Assembly (NCBI GenBank): GCA_017623595.1
Contig: JAGAOU010000032.1
Coordinates: 1-60,572 of the forward strand
Direction of reading: 5' to 3'
Length of the DNA: 60,572 nt
From: Clostridia bacterium
Lineage (GTDB): Bacteria > Bacillota > Clostridia > Oscillospirales > UBA644
Shown: piece by piece, positions 1-35,174 of the stretch
Layout: the number at the start of each line of letters is the position of its first letter
How positions within the stretch are numbered: position 1 is the first letter of the stretch
Position numbers and translations under genes: made by a program
Notes under the pieces: generated by a model
What the model saw: the letters and a program-made list of their open reading frames with translations, nothing else
Told to the model about the DNA's origin: nothing
Database searches by the model: none

Positions 1-58
1 AGGCAAAAATCGAAGAGTAAACAGATATGATAAAGAGGCGCTGAAAAGCGCCTCTCAG
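1..58 (+). repeat. Inverted copy of the GH2 gene 3' end and its hairpin
   Basis: These 58 bases are the exact reverse complement of 371-428, which hold the last codons, stop and downstream hairpin of the GH2 gene. Read on the plus strand, the copy encodes the same terminal residues AKIEE and a stop ending at base 20. Beyond base 58 the match decays but TGTCGA persists, so this is a diverged duplication and not a chance palindrome. It may be the tail of a second, convergent GH2 gene entering from the left, or a fold-back assembly artefact at a contig edge. Confidence 0.8.
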
Positions 59-96
59 TTTGTCGACAAACCATAAAAATAATCTTTTTGTCCCAT

Positions 97-292
97 ACAA
101 TCCTTCAGTCTCGCCTATGGCGAGCCAGCTCCCTTTACATAAGGGAGCCTGACCGTTGCGCACGAGCGTCCTATTATTTTACTGTCTGAGAGCGGCTCTT
201 GAACAGCGAAAAAACATTGAGAAATGCACAAAAATAAAGCCTCCCTTGTGTAAAGGGAGGGGGGGGGGACCGCAAAGCGGTGGAAGGATTGT
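97..292. repeat. MITE-like noncoding element with terminal inverted repeats
   Basis: The ends are ACAATCCTT (97-105) and AAGGATTGT (284-292). Inside them are inverted blocks CTCCCTTTAC and GTAAAGGGAG. The interior holds no coding sequence and carries a run of about ten G at 259-268. Sequences of this look are scattered in intergenic regions of many gut Clostridia (from memory, not checked). It sits exactly between the two arms of the 58-bp inverted repeat. Confidence 0.5.
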
Positions 293-370
293 TTCGGTTC
301 AAAAGTTACCTGTCATTCGCAAATAGAACATTTAAGTTTACAAAAAACCGGCTTGGACTTTTTCGACAGG

Positions 371-428
371 CTGAGAGGCGCTTTTCAGCGCCTCTTTATC
401 ATATCTGTTTACTCTTCGATTTTTGCCT
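371..428 (-). repeat. Second arm of the 58-bp inverted repeat
   Basis: It contains the final GH2 codons (409-428) and the hairpin AGAGGCGCT-TTTC-AGCGCCTCT at 374-395. That hairpin is the likely transcription end for the GH2 gene, although no T-run follows on the minus strand. It is identical to 1-58 in inverted orientation. Confidence 0.8.
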
Positions 429-2160
429 TGCGGGTATTGATTGCGTGGAAAATGGCGGGGTCAAACTTGAACTTACGGTCGTAGGTCAGAAGACCGTTGC
501 ATTCCTGCTCCACGTCGGTGATCTGGGTGTAGCAGAAGCCCATCATATGTTCGTTGTCCAGAAGAACGTCGGTCAGCCCCTTGTAGCGGGCAATAAATTC
601 TTCTTCGGTCTTGACGGACACACCGTAGCCCCAGGAATCGGAGGGAGAACTGACGTCCCATTTAATGCCGCCGTATTCGCTCATAAACACGGGGGTTCCG
701 TCATAAATCTGACGCTTGGGCTCTTTGCGATAAGATTGATCGGCCACGATACCCTCGTCGATCTTGGCATAGTACGAGGCAAACTTCTTGGGATTTTGCT
801 CATAATCATGAACGTCCCAAAGGCCACAGTGAACCACGTGGTAGTTACCGCTGGTGTCGATGCAGGGGCGGGTGGGGTCGGTATATCTTGTGGCACGGTA
901 AATCATATCAAGTACATCGCCGCACTGACGGGCATTGCCCTCGTTGAAGGAGTCCCAGGTTTCGTTGAAGGGACACCAGCCGATGACCGAGGGATGGGAG
1001 AAGTCCCGTTCCACCGATTCCAGCCACTCACGAAGATAATTCTTCATAGCGGAGGCATCGGAAATGGAAATGCCCCAGGAGGGATATTCGCCCCAAACCA
1101 GATAGCCCAGCTTGTCCGCCCAGTAGAGATAGGTGGGTTCAAAGACCTTTTGATGGAGACGGGCGCCGTTGAAGCCCAACTGCATGGAACAGACAATATC
1201 GTTCTTCAGGGCTTCTTCGGAGGGGGCGGTGTAAATGCCGTCGGGATAGAACCCCTGATCGAGAACGAAACGACCGAAGAAGGGCTTGCCGTTGAGGGTC
1301 ATACCCTTGTCGGTCAGACCGACCTCACGCAGACCGAAGTAGCCGCAGAAGGAATCCGCCACGGCACCGTTCTTTTCCAAGGAAACGGAAAGATCATAAA
1401 GGCGTCCTTCGCCGATTTCCCAAAGATGGGCTTCCTTCAAAGAAAGGGTGAGGGTGACGGCATTGCCGTTGACCACGGTGGATGCAGAGCCCATATCCGC
1501 CCCCTCGTAGGAAGCGTTGACCGACAGTTTTCCGCCGATGGAGGCCCCCGTCACCTGAAATTGCAGGGTAACGGCAGCATTGGCCACGTCGGGATACACA
1601 CGGTAGGTCTCCACCCGCGCGGCGTCCACGGGTTCCAGCCAAACCGACTGCCAAATGCCCGTGGTACGAGTATAGAAACAACCGTAAGAATTGAACCGAT
1701 GGCTCTGCTTGCCCGAGGGCTGCTTGTTACTCCTAAGATCATCGAAGGCAGAAAGCATAATAACATTTTCCCCGTCGGTCAAAGCGTCGGTAATGTCAAA
1801 AGCAAAGGGGGTGTAACCGCCCATATGGGTACCAACCTTTTTGCCATTGACGTAGACTGTGGCAAAATAATCAACAGCGCCGAAATGAAGCACCGTCCGC
1901 TTGCCTTGAAAGGATTCGGGCAGGGTGATTGCTTTACGGTACCACACACAGTTCATAAAATCCTTGTGTCCCACGCCGGAAAGATCACTTTCGGGGCAGT
2001 AGGGAACGGTAATTTTGCCGTCCAAAGAGGGGCGCTCCCAATATTTTTTCCATTCGCCCACGCAGGCGTTGTCAATTTCGAATTCCCATTCGCCGTTCAG
2101 GCACAACCAATCCTTGCGAACCAACTGAGGGCGGGGATATTCTTTTCTCAAATCAACCAT
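409..2160 (-). CDS. Glycoside hydrolase family 2 enzyme (beta-galactosidase/glucuronidase type)
   Basis: The 583-residue protein has the GH2 order. A sugar-binding jelly-roll domain (about 1-180) is followed by an Ig-like sandwich (about 180-285) and a TIM barrel. In the barrel, WCPFNETWDSF gives the acid/base Glu400 and MSEYGGI gives the nucleophile Glu495. It has no signal peptide, so it acts in the cytoplasm, probably releasing a terminal beta-linked sugar from an imported oligosaccharide. It is shorter than LacZ (about 1,000 residues) and close to beta-glucuronidase length, but the substrate cannot be read from sequence. The start has GGAG nine bases upstream. It is monocistronic and reads out to the left. 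Confidence 0.9.
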   Translation of the reverse strand: MVDLRKEYPRPQLVRKDWLCLNGEWEFEIDNACVGEWKKYWERPSLDGKITVPYCPESDLSGVGHKDFMNCVWYRKAITLPESFQGKRTVLHFGAVDYFATVYVNGKKVGTHMGGYTPFAFDITDALTDGENVIMLSAFDDLRSNKQPSGKQSHRFNSYGCFYTRTTGIWQSVWLEPVDAARVETYRVYPDVANAAVTLQFQVTGASIGGKLSVNASYEGADMGSASTVVNGNAVTLTLSLKEAHLWEIGEGRLYDLSVSLEKNGAVADSFCGYFGLREVGLTDKGMTLNGKPFFGRFVLDQGFYPDGIYTAPSEEALKNDIVCSMQLGFNGARLHQKVFEPTYLYWADKLGYLVWGEYPSWGISISDASAMKNYLREWLESVERDFSHPSVIGWCPFNETWDSFNEGNARQCGDVLDMIYRATRYTDPTRPCIDTSGNYHVVHCGLWDVHDYEQNPKKFASYYAKIDEGIVADQSYRKEPKRQIYDGTPVFMSEYGGIKWDVSSPSDSWGYGVSVKTEEEFIARYKGLTDVLLDNEHMMGFCYTQITDVEQECNGLLTYDRKFKFDPAIFHAINTRKAKIEE

Positions 2161-33306: not shown

Positions 33307-35174
33307 TCCCCCCCATTCATGACAACCAAACGGAAATCCTCTTTGATTCCCGTGACCCTTTTTACAGATCCCCCACCGGAGCCGTACCTGCAGGTACGGC
33401 GATCGGTCTTTCTTTGCTGATTCCCAAGGGGGAGTGTCCCCTTTCGGTGACGGTATGGTTCGCAAAGGACGGAACACCCGCCAAAGAAACCGAGCTGGTA
33501 TTCACCGAAAATATCCGTCAGTATCAGCGGTGGACCGCCACCGTCACGCCCACCGAGGCGGGAGTTTATTGGTACACCTTCCGCATCAAAACGCCCAAAG
33601 GGGTGAAAATTTACGGAAGAGATCTCCGCAACCGCCCCGTCTGCGGACGGGAAAACCCCTCCGCATGGCAGATCACGTCCTACGATCCCACGCTGAAAGC
33701 GCCCAAGGGATGGGCAGGGGGCATGTTTTATCAGATCTTCCCCGACCGTTTTTATCGGGAAGGGGAACGGGTACGCCCCGCAGGCAAGGAATATGCCACC
33801 TTCCGCACCCCCGAAGAGCTTCCCACATGGAAGCGAGCCCCCAACGGAGATCTGGATACCACGGACTTTTTCGGAGGAAACCTGAAGGGGATCGAGAAAA
33901 AACTGGATTATCTCAAGGATCTCGGCGTCACCATCCTCTATCTGAATCCCATCTTTGAGGCCTACACAAATCACCGTTACGATACGGGAAATTACGAAAA
34001 GATCGACCCCTTTCTGGGTACGGAGGAGGATTTCCGCGCCCTCTGCACCCAAGCCCACGCCCGCGGCATCAAAATCATGCTGGACGGGGTCTTCAGCCAC
34101 ACGGGGGACAACAGTATCTATTTCAACCGTTACGGCGATTATCCCAACGTGGGGGCATATCAATCCAAAGAATCCCCCTACTATCCCTGGTTTAAGTTCA
34201 AAAAATGGCCCGATGACTACGAATCCTGGTGGGGAATCAAGCTTCATCCCGAGGTGGATGAGGAAAACCCCGATTATTTGGAATACATTACAGGGAAAAA
34301 CGGAATCCTACGCCGCTGGCTGCGGGCGGGCGCCGACGGATGGCGCTTTGACGTGGCAGACGAATTGCCCGACGGCTTTTTGGATGCGGCCCACAAGGCT
34401 ATTAAAGAGGAAAAGCCCGACGCTCTGTTTATTGGAGAGGTTTGGGAAGACGCCTCCAACAAAGAATCCTACGGCAAGCGCCGCCGCTATCTGCTGGGCG
34501 ACCAACTGGACAGCGTGATGAATTATGTGCTGAAGGATGCCATTTTAGCCTTTGTCCTCACGGGAGACAGCGACGAATTCGCCGAACGGATTCGGGGCTT
34601 GACCGAGAACTATCCCCCCTGCGCCCTGAATTGCGCCATGAACCTCATCGGCACCCACGATACCCCTCGGGTCCTGACCACTTTGACGGGGGTGGAGCTG
34701 CCAAAAGAACCCGCCGCTCAGGTGGCCATGACCTTCACCGAAGAGCAAAAAGCCGAAGCCATGGCACGGCTGAAGGTGGCGGACATTCTCATGTTCACCC
34801 TGCCCGGAATTCCTTCGGTCTACTACGGCGACGAGGCAGGCATGTGGGGCGGCCACGATCCGCTGAACCGCCGGTTTTATCCCTGGGGCAAGGAAAACAA
34901 GGATCTGCAAAAGCACATCCGCACCTTGGGGCATCTGCGAAAGAATTATCCCGTGCTGAAGGAAGGAACCACCGAAATCCTCTCTGCACGGCAGGGACTG
35001 GTCATTTTCCGCCGCAGAGACGGAATTCATCCCGATCTCACCGTGGCGGTCAACGCCTCACGGGAGGAACGGAACGTGGATTTGGGACACCCCCGCACCG
35101 ACCTGATCACCGGCAAACGCCTGACCGACAAAACCACCCTTCCCCCCATGTCCGCGATTGTATTGAAAAACTGA
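33303..35174 (+). CDS. GH13 alpha-amylase/neopullulanase-like enzyme
   Basis: The 623-residue enzyme hydrolyses alpha-1,4 (possibly also alpha-1,6) glucans and has no signal peptide, so it works on internal glycogen or maltodextrin. It has an N-terminal beta domain (about 1-120), then the barrel: DGVFSHTGDNS (region I), GWRFDVADE (nucleophile Asp), IGEVWED (acid Glu), and IGTHDTPR (region IV). The GTG at 33303 is preferred, with GGAG eight bases upstream and a four-base overlap with glgP. An in-frame TTG at 33273 would add ten residues. Confidence 0.92.
   Translation: MIPPIHDNQTEILFDSRDPFYRSPTGAVPAGTAIGLSLLIPKGECPLSVTVWFAKDGTPAKETELVFTENIRQYQRWTATVTPTEAGVYWYTFRIKTPKGVKIYGRDLRNRPVCGRENPSAWQITSYDPTLKAPKGWAGGMFYQIFPDRFYREGERVRPAGKEYATFRTPEELPTWKRAPNGDLDTTDFFGGNLKGIEKKLDYLKDLGVTILYLNPIFEAYTNHRYDTGNYEKIDPFLGTEEDFRALCTQAHARGIKIMLDGVFSHTGDNSIYFNRYGDYPNVGAYQSKESPYYPWFKFKKWPDDYESWWGIKLHPEVDEENPDYLEYITGKNGILRRWLRAGADGWRFDVADELPDGFLDAAHKAIKEEKPDALFIGEVWEDASNKESYGKRRRYLLGDQLDSVMNYVLKDAILAFVLTGDSDEFAERIRGLTENYPPCALNCAMNLIGTHDTPRVLTTLTGVELPKEPAAQVAMTFTEEQKAEAMARLKVADILMFTLPGIPSVYYGDEAGMWGGHDPLNRRFYPWGKENKDLQKHIRTLGHLRKNYPVLKEGTTEILSARQGLVIFRRRDGIHPDLTVAVNASREERNVDLGHPRTDLITGKRLTDKTTLPPMSAIVLKN

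Follow-up and report, generated by a model that had tools for sequence, protein, structure and literature searches.

The question raised by this locus is why the 3' end of a GH2 glycoside hydrolase gene should recur, inverted, at the very edge of the DNA that carries it. The window, a stretch of 60,572 nt, is the whole of contig C57 of a Clostridia bacterium assembly (here G000; 2.43 Mb in 126 contigs, 86% complete), and its base 1 is a contig edge. The original prediction, made from the letters alone, described an exact 58-bp inverted repeat of the last GH2 codons and a hairpin around a noncoding, palindromic, MITE-like element, and it offered two explanations: either two GH2 genes converge tail to tail, or the contig edge folds back as an artefact. 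Our answer, to which we give about three chances in four, is a joint one, in which a MITE has inserted at the terminator hairpin of GH2 and the 58-bp arm is a fold-back artefact. A broader reading, which we consider quite probable, is that a clade of IS1182-family elements, and MITEs with its ends, insert at terminator hairpins by their shape and duplicate the whole hairpin.

The inverted arms and the end of GH2

As a description of the sequence, the original prediction holds. Reverse-complemented, bases 1-58 match 371-428 exactly. The right arm contains the final GH2 codons and stop (409-428) and, 13 nt past the stop, a 22-nt hairpin (374-395); the left arm contains both of these inverted, and the two hairpin loops are mirror images, with 0 mismatches when compared inverted versus 4 when compared directly. 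The arms overlap the ends of the intervening element by 3 bp (CAG/CTG), and arms and terminal repeats taken together form a 70-nt match at 96%, with mismatches at 59, 60 and 67. A strong fold is predicted for 1-428, but that follows from the inversion of the arms, and hence it is not independent evidence. An Rfam search of the window found tRNA only.

Table 1. Features at the left edge of the window (positions in nt from base 1)
Feature	Position	Strand	Remarks
Left inverted-repeat arm	1..58		contig edge; GH2 3' end with hairpin, inverted; fold-back artefact probable
Left hairpin AGAGGCGCTGAAAAGCGCCTCT	34..55		inverted copy of 374-395
IS1182-related MITE	56..373		318 bp, no ORF of at least 100 aa
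Left terminal inverted repeat CAGTTTGTCGACAAA	56..70	+
Leftmost base private to the window copy	140..140		T, versus C in 11 other copies
Right terminal inverted repeat CAGCCTGTCGAAAAAGTCC	355..373	-	same 19 nt as IS1182-family ends in G204 and G128
Right inverted-repeat arm	371..428		3 bp of element end, hairpin, GH2 3' end
Hairpin right after the GH2 stop	374..395	-	read as GH2 terminator and insertion target; orthologues in congeners are likewise followed by a hairpin
GH2 glycoside hydrolase gene	409..2160	-	583 aa; Pfam GH2 domains

The congeners help with what the hairpin is. Two of them have a single GH2 orthologue each, 82% identical, with its own hairpin soon after the stop, and in neither is the MITE beside the gene. 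Because a hairpin is there in the congeners without the element, 374-395 is best read as the predicted terminator hairpin of GH2. With up to 2 mismatches allowed, this hairpin was found at no other place in the G000 genome. Synteny is another route by which the true left neighbor of C57 was sought: in the congeners, copA follows GH2 with one or two small genes between. In G000, the copA orthologue lies on contig C116, with its start about 7.7 kb in, and no element was seen in the 1.3 kb ahead of it. With no element in that stretch, synteny was of no help.

The element between the arms

The noncoding region between the arms is an interspersed, partly palindromic repeat. It is short, non-coding and multicopy, and has terminal inverted repeats in which 12 of the 15 outermost bases are complementary, so that "MITE-like" in the original prediction was the correct name; the relation to IS1182 and the hairpin as an insertion site had gone unrecognized there. 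The outermost 19 nt on the GH2 side are also an end of the insertion sequence (IS) found in genomes G204 and G128. We call the element IS1182-related, and not an IS1182 element proper, because 56-373 has no ORF long enough (Table 1) and so encodes no transposase.

Within G000, 56-373 matches 23 other places at 92-97% identity, some of which are halves of one copy; at least 3 pairs of matches are of this kind, and we put the copy number at about 20. Because repeats break assemblies, the matches cluster at contig edges, with 16 of the 23 within 5 nt of one. Three copies were read from contig pairs with overlapping edges, C88/C63, C11/C20 and C40/C81, the overlaps being 141, 140 and 136 nt; C11 and C63 also overlap further element edges by shorter lengths, and were paired via the longest overlap. 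Distant copies occur in all four congeners, the best in G004. Besides base 140, the window copy has private differences at 168 and in the G run at 259-263, which is five bases longer than in the 13 other copies covering the place.

Several relatives have another form. A variant element (L021, L023, L024 and L025, on C53, C4, C31 and C2 of G000) has one half and one end in common with the MITE and a different other half, and all four examples reach contig edges there. On C71 of G000 (L241, about 34552-34603), a truncated copy consists of a hairpin and, after it, no more of the MITE than its first ~50 bp. The start of contig C57 of G002 (L424) has a MITE end 94% identical and shares the hairpin core GAGCCAATCCAAAACGGATTGGCTC with the end of contig C61 of G000 (L011); that G002 contig may in fact come from the G000 species, or else the insertion may be old and shared.

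Hairpins as targets, duplicated whole

A hairpin was counted as adjoining an element end when its stem scored at least 8 and lay within 4 nt. On that measure, hairpins adjoin 30 of the 33 distinct MITE ends in G000 and 12 of the 14 in congener G004, a flush hairpin being missing at 3 G000 ends and 2 G004 matches. A test of the same kind picks out 15 of 4000 positions taken at random from the window and, at 10-79 nt after 35 large-ORF stops, 99 of 2450. These stricter counts replace those of a loose pattern (flush hairpin at 28 of 80 hits in G000 and 13 of 26 in G004), whose hits include non-ends. The hairpin adjacent to L015, at the start of C84 in G000, has a stem score of 22, about twice that at most other sites.

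The whole hairpin stands on both sides of the element in 26 measured copies, 14 of them IS and 12 MITE. Repeat length ranges from 20 to 35 nt, and in 20 of the 26 the two sides agree without mismatch, loop included; the top direct-repeat score in 60 random 600-bp stretches was 17. For the MITE, the target duplication is thus found in 12 copies, the far side of the window copy being read as fold-back. The pair C35/C26, which has an identical 32-nt repeat, is not among the 26 since its contigs do not overlap. Of 16 copies measured with outside context, 15 have both repeat ends no more than 2 nt from the hairpin feet, the exception being L377, where one hairpin copy pairs 4 nt further; across the 16, repeat length correlates with hairpin length at r = 0.88. 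In the 26-copy set, with the hairpin measured inside the repeat, r is 0.93, a value that is partly built in. The sequences of the hairpins vary between sites. Position at hairpins and duplication of the hairpin can be read directly from the sequence; that the length of the duplication follows the hairpin points to recognition of a folded DNA structure, not of a sequence.

Unlike hairpins on the two sides are found at MITE copies C64 and C5 and at IS loci L378, L379, L397 and L401. As to orientation, when the hairpins alone are compared in 23 single-locus copies, the loops are direct in 19, inverted in 2 (L384 and L221) and tied in 2; inversion of the loop alone thus does not set the window copy apart. 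The two hairpins of L384 (contig C44 of G031) are exact mirror images over 32 nt, possibly a trace of template switching in the cell.

Origin of the 58-bp arm

Given that hairpin duplication is common to these elements, the point of interest is why the window copy has inverted flanks. The 58-bp arm is, in our view, most likely a fold-back that arose while the library was prepared or during local assembly. The 12-nt CTGAGAGGCGCT would let a strand that terminates in the far hairpin pair with the GH2-side hairpin and element end; synthesis would then turn back across the GH2 3' end and run on to where the fragment stops, which would become base 1. Such a molecule would span private base 140 in one read, assuming reads of ~150 nt. 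Chimeric reads arising from inverted repeats and palindromes in library preparation have been described (PMC10908179).

The flanks and the edges of the assembly argue that the arm is not a transposition product. Inverted outer flanks were seen in 0 of 22 readable two-sided single-locus copies, where at most 15 of 30 positions agree and the longest run is 4, while in the window copy all 30 of 30 are inverted; exact mirror hairpins are rare among the copies. The edge survey took in 150 of the 252 contig edges of G000, of which 15 read as N and were dropped, leaving 135 usable. An exact edge inverted repeat of at least 20 nt was found at C57 only, 1 of the 135; the end of C61 and the start of C73 have 19-nt ones, inside the MITE. 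The C57 repeat exceeds chance for this assembly. The same figure counts against fold-back to the extent that this assembler rarely made one, and such rarity would fit a chance molecule better than a general assembler fault.

How the assembler treats true repeats can be judged from the overlaps between edges. There are 21 of at least 100 nt, of which 9, including all 5 shared starts, are exactly 141 nt, and none is longer. From these overlaps we infer a de Bruijn graph assembler with k = 141. That k is a value used by MEGAHIT. The idea that 58 is k-1 at k = 59 was dropped, as edge overlaps reach 141.

The alternative that survives best, though we hold it to be unlikely, is a short real snap-back in the cell, in which a template switch at the hairpin duplication would have turned the loop round, with ~36 nt of the GH2 3' end copied along. 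That switching may occur in cells is suggested by the inverted loops of 2 of 23 other copies, exact in L384 and partial in L221, but the outer flanks of those two are not inverted; moreover, a short real inversion should let the contig continue past base 1, and it stops there.

The tail-to-tail arrangement put forward in the original prediction would be a real large inverted duplication, produced by palindrome-driven, hairpin-ended replication of the chromosome, and to this we give only a small chance. The arms are exact, the element and hairpins do form an interrupted palindrome, and in Escherichia coli without SbcCD and RecA such a palindrome leads to large inverted chromosome duplications (PMC3315005, for that genetic background). 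A genome-wide search for another GH2 gave 39% identity as its best other match, in an assembly that is 86% complete and where an identical second copy may have collapsed. Beyond the lack of another close GH2, there are the single orthologue in each of the two congeners and the single occurrence of the hairpin in the genome. Also, with overlaps of up to 141, the contig would be expected to break near 371 at a long identical inverted repeat, leaving an arm of ~141 nt, not 58. Of the two options first offered, we favor fold-back as the more probable. A warning follows from it, namely that palindromic sites can yield fold-back contig edges that mimic gene duplications.

IS1182-family elements as probable partners

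A MITE encoding no transposase raises the question of its partner. No PF13751 (DDE_Tnp_1_6) gene was found in G000, which is 86% complete, or in its four congeners. Such genes are present in 39 of 295 genomes of the order (E up to 1e-10), and partners with the same ends as the MITE are found in other genera of it. We examined 31 of the 61 matches listed, with 13 loci added later. A hairpin repeat is present at 7 of the 31, and all 7 have CAGnCTGTCGA-like ends. The same end type is found, partly by eye, at the unlike hairpins of L378, L379, L397, L401 and L392, and also at a hairpin at L402, where one side only is on the contig. The remaining 18 have no hairpin repeat, and in some of these the ends are not definable. 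Among the later loci, the hairpin repeat is present at L412-L417 and L419 and was not found at L420-L423; L411 is the same place as L392, and L418 is a copy at a contig edge discussed below.

Two of the transposases, from L377 and L384, were tested against NF033551 (IS1182 family), scoring 401 and 386 bits with a cut-off of 270. In a tree of 24 transposases, the hairpin-flanked ones form one clade with support 98/96, and its sole unlabelled member, L392, was afterwards found to have hairpin flanks. The terminal repeat in common and the clade are plain in the sequences; from them, we infer that the MITE is mobilized in trans by transposases of this clade. Other candidates were rejected. The IS1634-like transposase of G003 has no long-range hairpin repeat and no matching ends, and IS1182-type loci with GGGGCTGT-like ends have no hairpin repeat. 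The 31-nt direct repeat at L406 involves no hairpin, and this locus was left out of the counts.

The most instructive genome is G204, with eight identical IS copies of 1526 bp, seven of them on a 1.94-Mb contig; being identical, they are recent. In six of the eight, the hairpin is duplicated exactly, over 20-33 nt. At the seventh (L411) the two flanking hairpins, A and B, differ, and the eighth (L418) is at the edge of the 19-kb contig C2 with hairpin B adjoining. Before the end of C2 was fetched, it was predicted that A would be found there at the IS edge, and so it was. With C2 ending in A as predicted, a recombination of A-IS-A with B-IS-B can explain the unlike hairpins of L411 and L418 as one event, or else as an assembly exchange of the same form. 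Recombination may also lie behind the six unlike cases listed above. With its start precisely on an IS edge and its end in the other copy's hairpin, contig C2 itself (L418 and L425) has the look of a segment, perhaps circular, that recombination between two IS copies released, or of an assembly exchange of that form.

Those six unlike cases are what one would cite for the idea that the paired hairpins are no insertion duplications, the repeat having landed between terminators already paired or since made alike by gene conversion, but this is very improbable given that 20 of 26 pairs lack any mismatch, loop included, though hairpins vary by site, and that six of the eight identical G204 copies have exact pairs, with the other two explained by exchange.

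A proposed mechanism

The model that would account for insertion with duplication of the whole hairpin begins with a transposase, acting in trans, that recognizes a terminator hairpin extruded as a cruciform, whatever its sequence. The putative cut sites are the two 5' feet of the hairpin, where the 3' ends of the element would be joined, and gap repair would then copy the whole hairpin to both sides of the element. Joining at those two feet would by itself make the duplication as long as the target hairpin.

After such an insertion, the gene-side hairpin would run into the element, while the far hairpin would keep its outer flank. Ignoring gene direction, the fraction of T in the ten bases beyond the right-hand hairpin copy is 0.53, and that of A in the ten before the left-hand copy is 0.50. 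Because the far hairpin keeps this T- or A-rich flank, transcription termination after insertion is predicted to be probably kept. If this is true, the gene regains a terminator hairpin beyond the element, which suggests a low-damage strategy of inserting at terminators and leaving a complete hairpin past the element.

Comparison with known systems

Most transposases are known to make a target duplication of near-constant length, and the direct repeats of IS1182 members in ISfinder and TnPedia have a wide length range. The duplications described here track the target hairpin (20-35 nt), unlike near-constant ones.

Among small repeats, RUP, BOX, SPRITE and QMITE are like the MITE in being short, multicopy, non-coding and intergenic with strong secondary structure, but targeting of terminator hairpins with duplication is not described for them in the part of PMC10969869 drawn on here. 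Insertion sequences at REP palindromes (PMC1525189) likewise have extragenic palindromic targets, but REPs are a repeated sequence family, whereas the hairpins here vary by site. IS1549 and IS1634 resemble these elements in their long and variable target duplications, 8 to 514 bp; they belong to another family, the portion of PMC2266710 concerned describes no mechanistic model or link to hairpins, and the IS1634-like locus L375 lacks a hairpin repeat.

The nearest relatives are IS1272 and TnSha1, with the same transposase family, hairpin targets without shared sequence, and insertion at the base of the hairpin. IS1272, an IS1182-family member, eliminates the stem-loop at which it inserts, in many cases a terminator (PMC5678879, PMC4923244). 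By these accounts, the hairpin is lost wholly or in part when IS1272 or TnSha1 inserts, and no target duplication is made, whereas here the whole hairpin is kept on both sides. Replacement of the stem-loop in the IS1272 manner is not seen in the 26 measured copies, all of which have the hairpin on either side. According to PMC5678879, Siguier et al. had noted that some IS1182 members have palindromic targets. Our search of mostly open literature, outside ISfinder and TnPedia, found no account of an IS or MITE that duplicates a whole hairpin. Within that literature, such duplication appeared previously only as a drawn possibility, in the pathway b sketched in PMC5678879, where joining of 3' ends at the 5' feet of the stem-loop would duplicate all of it. 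Judged by their flanks, the elements here look like products of that pathway. If so, they are the duplicating counterpart of the hairpin replacement by IS1272, and they give the hypothetical pathway many natural examples and a testable system.
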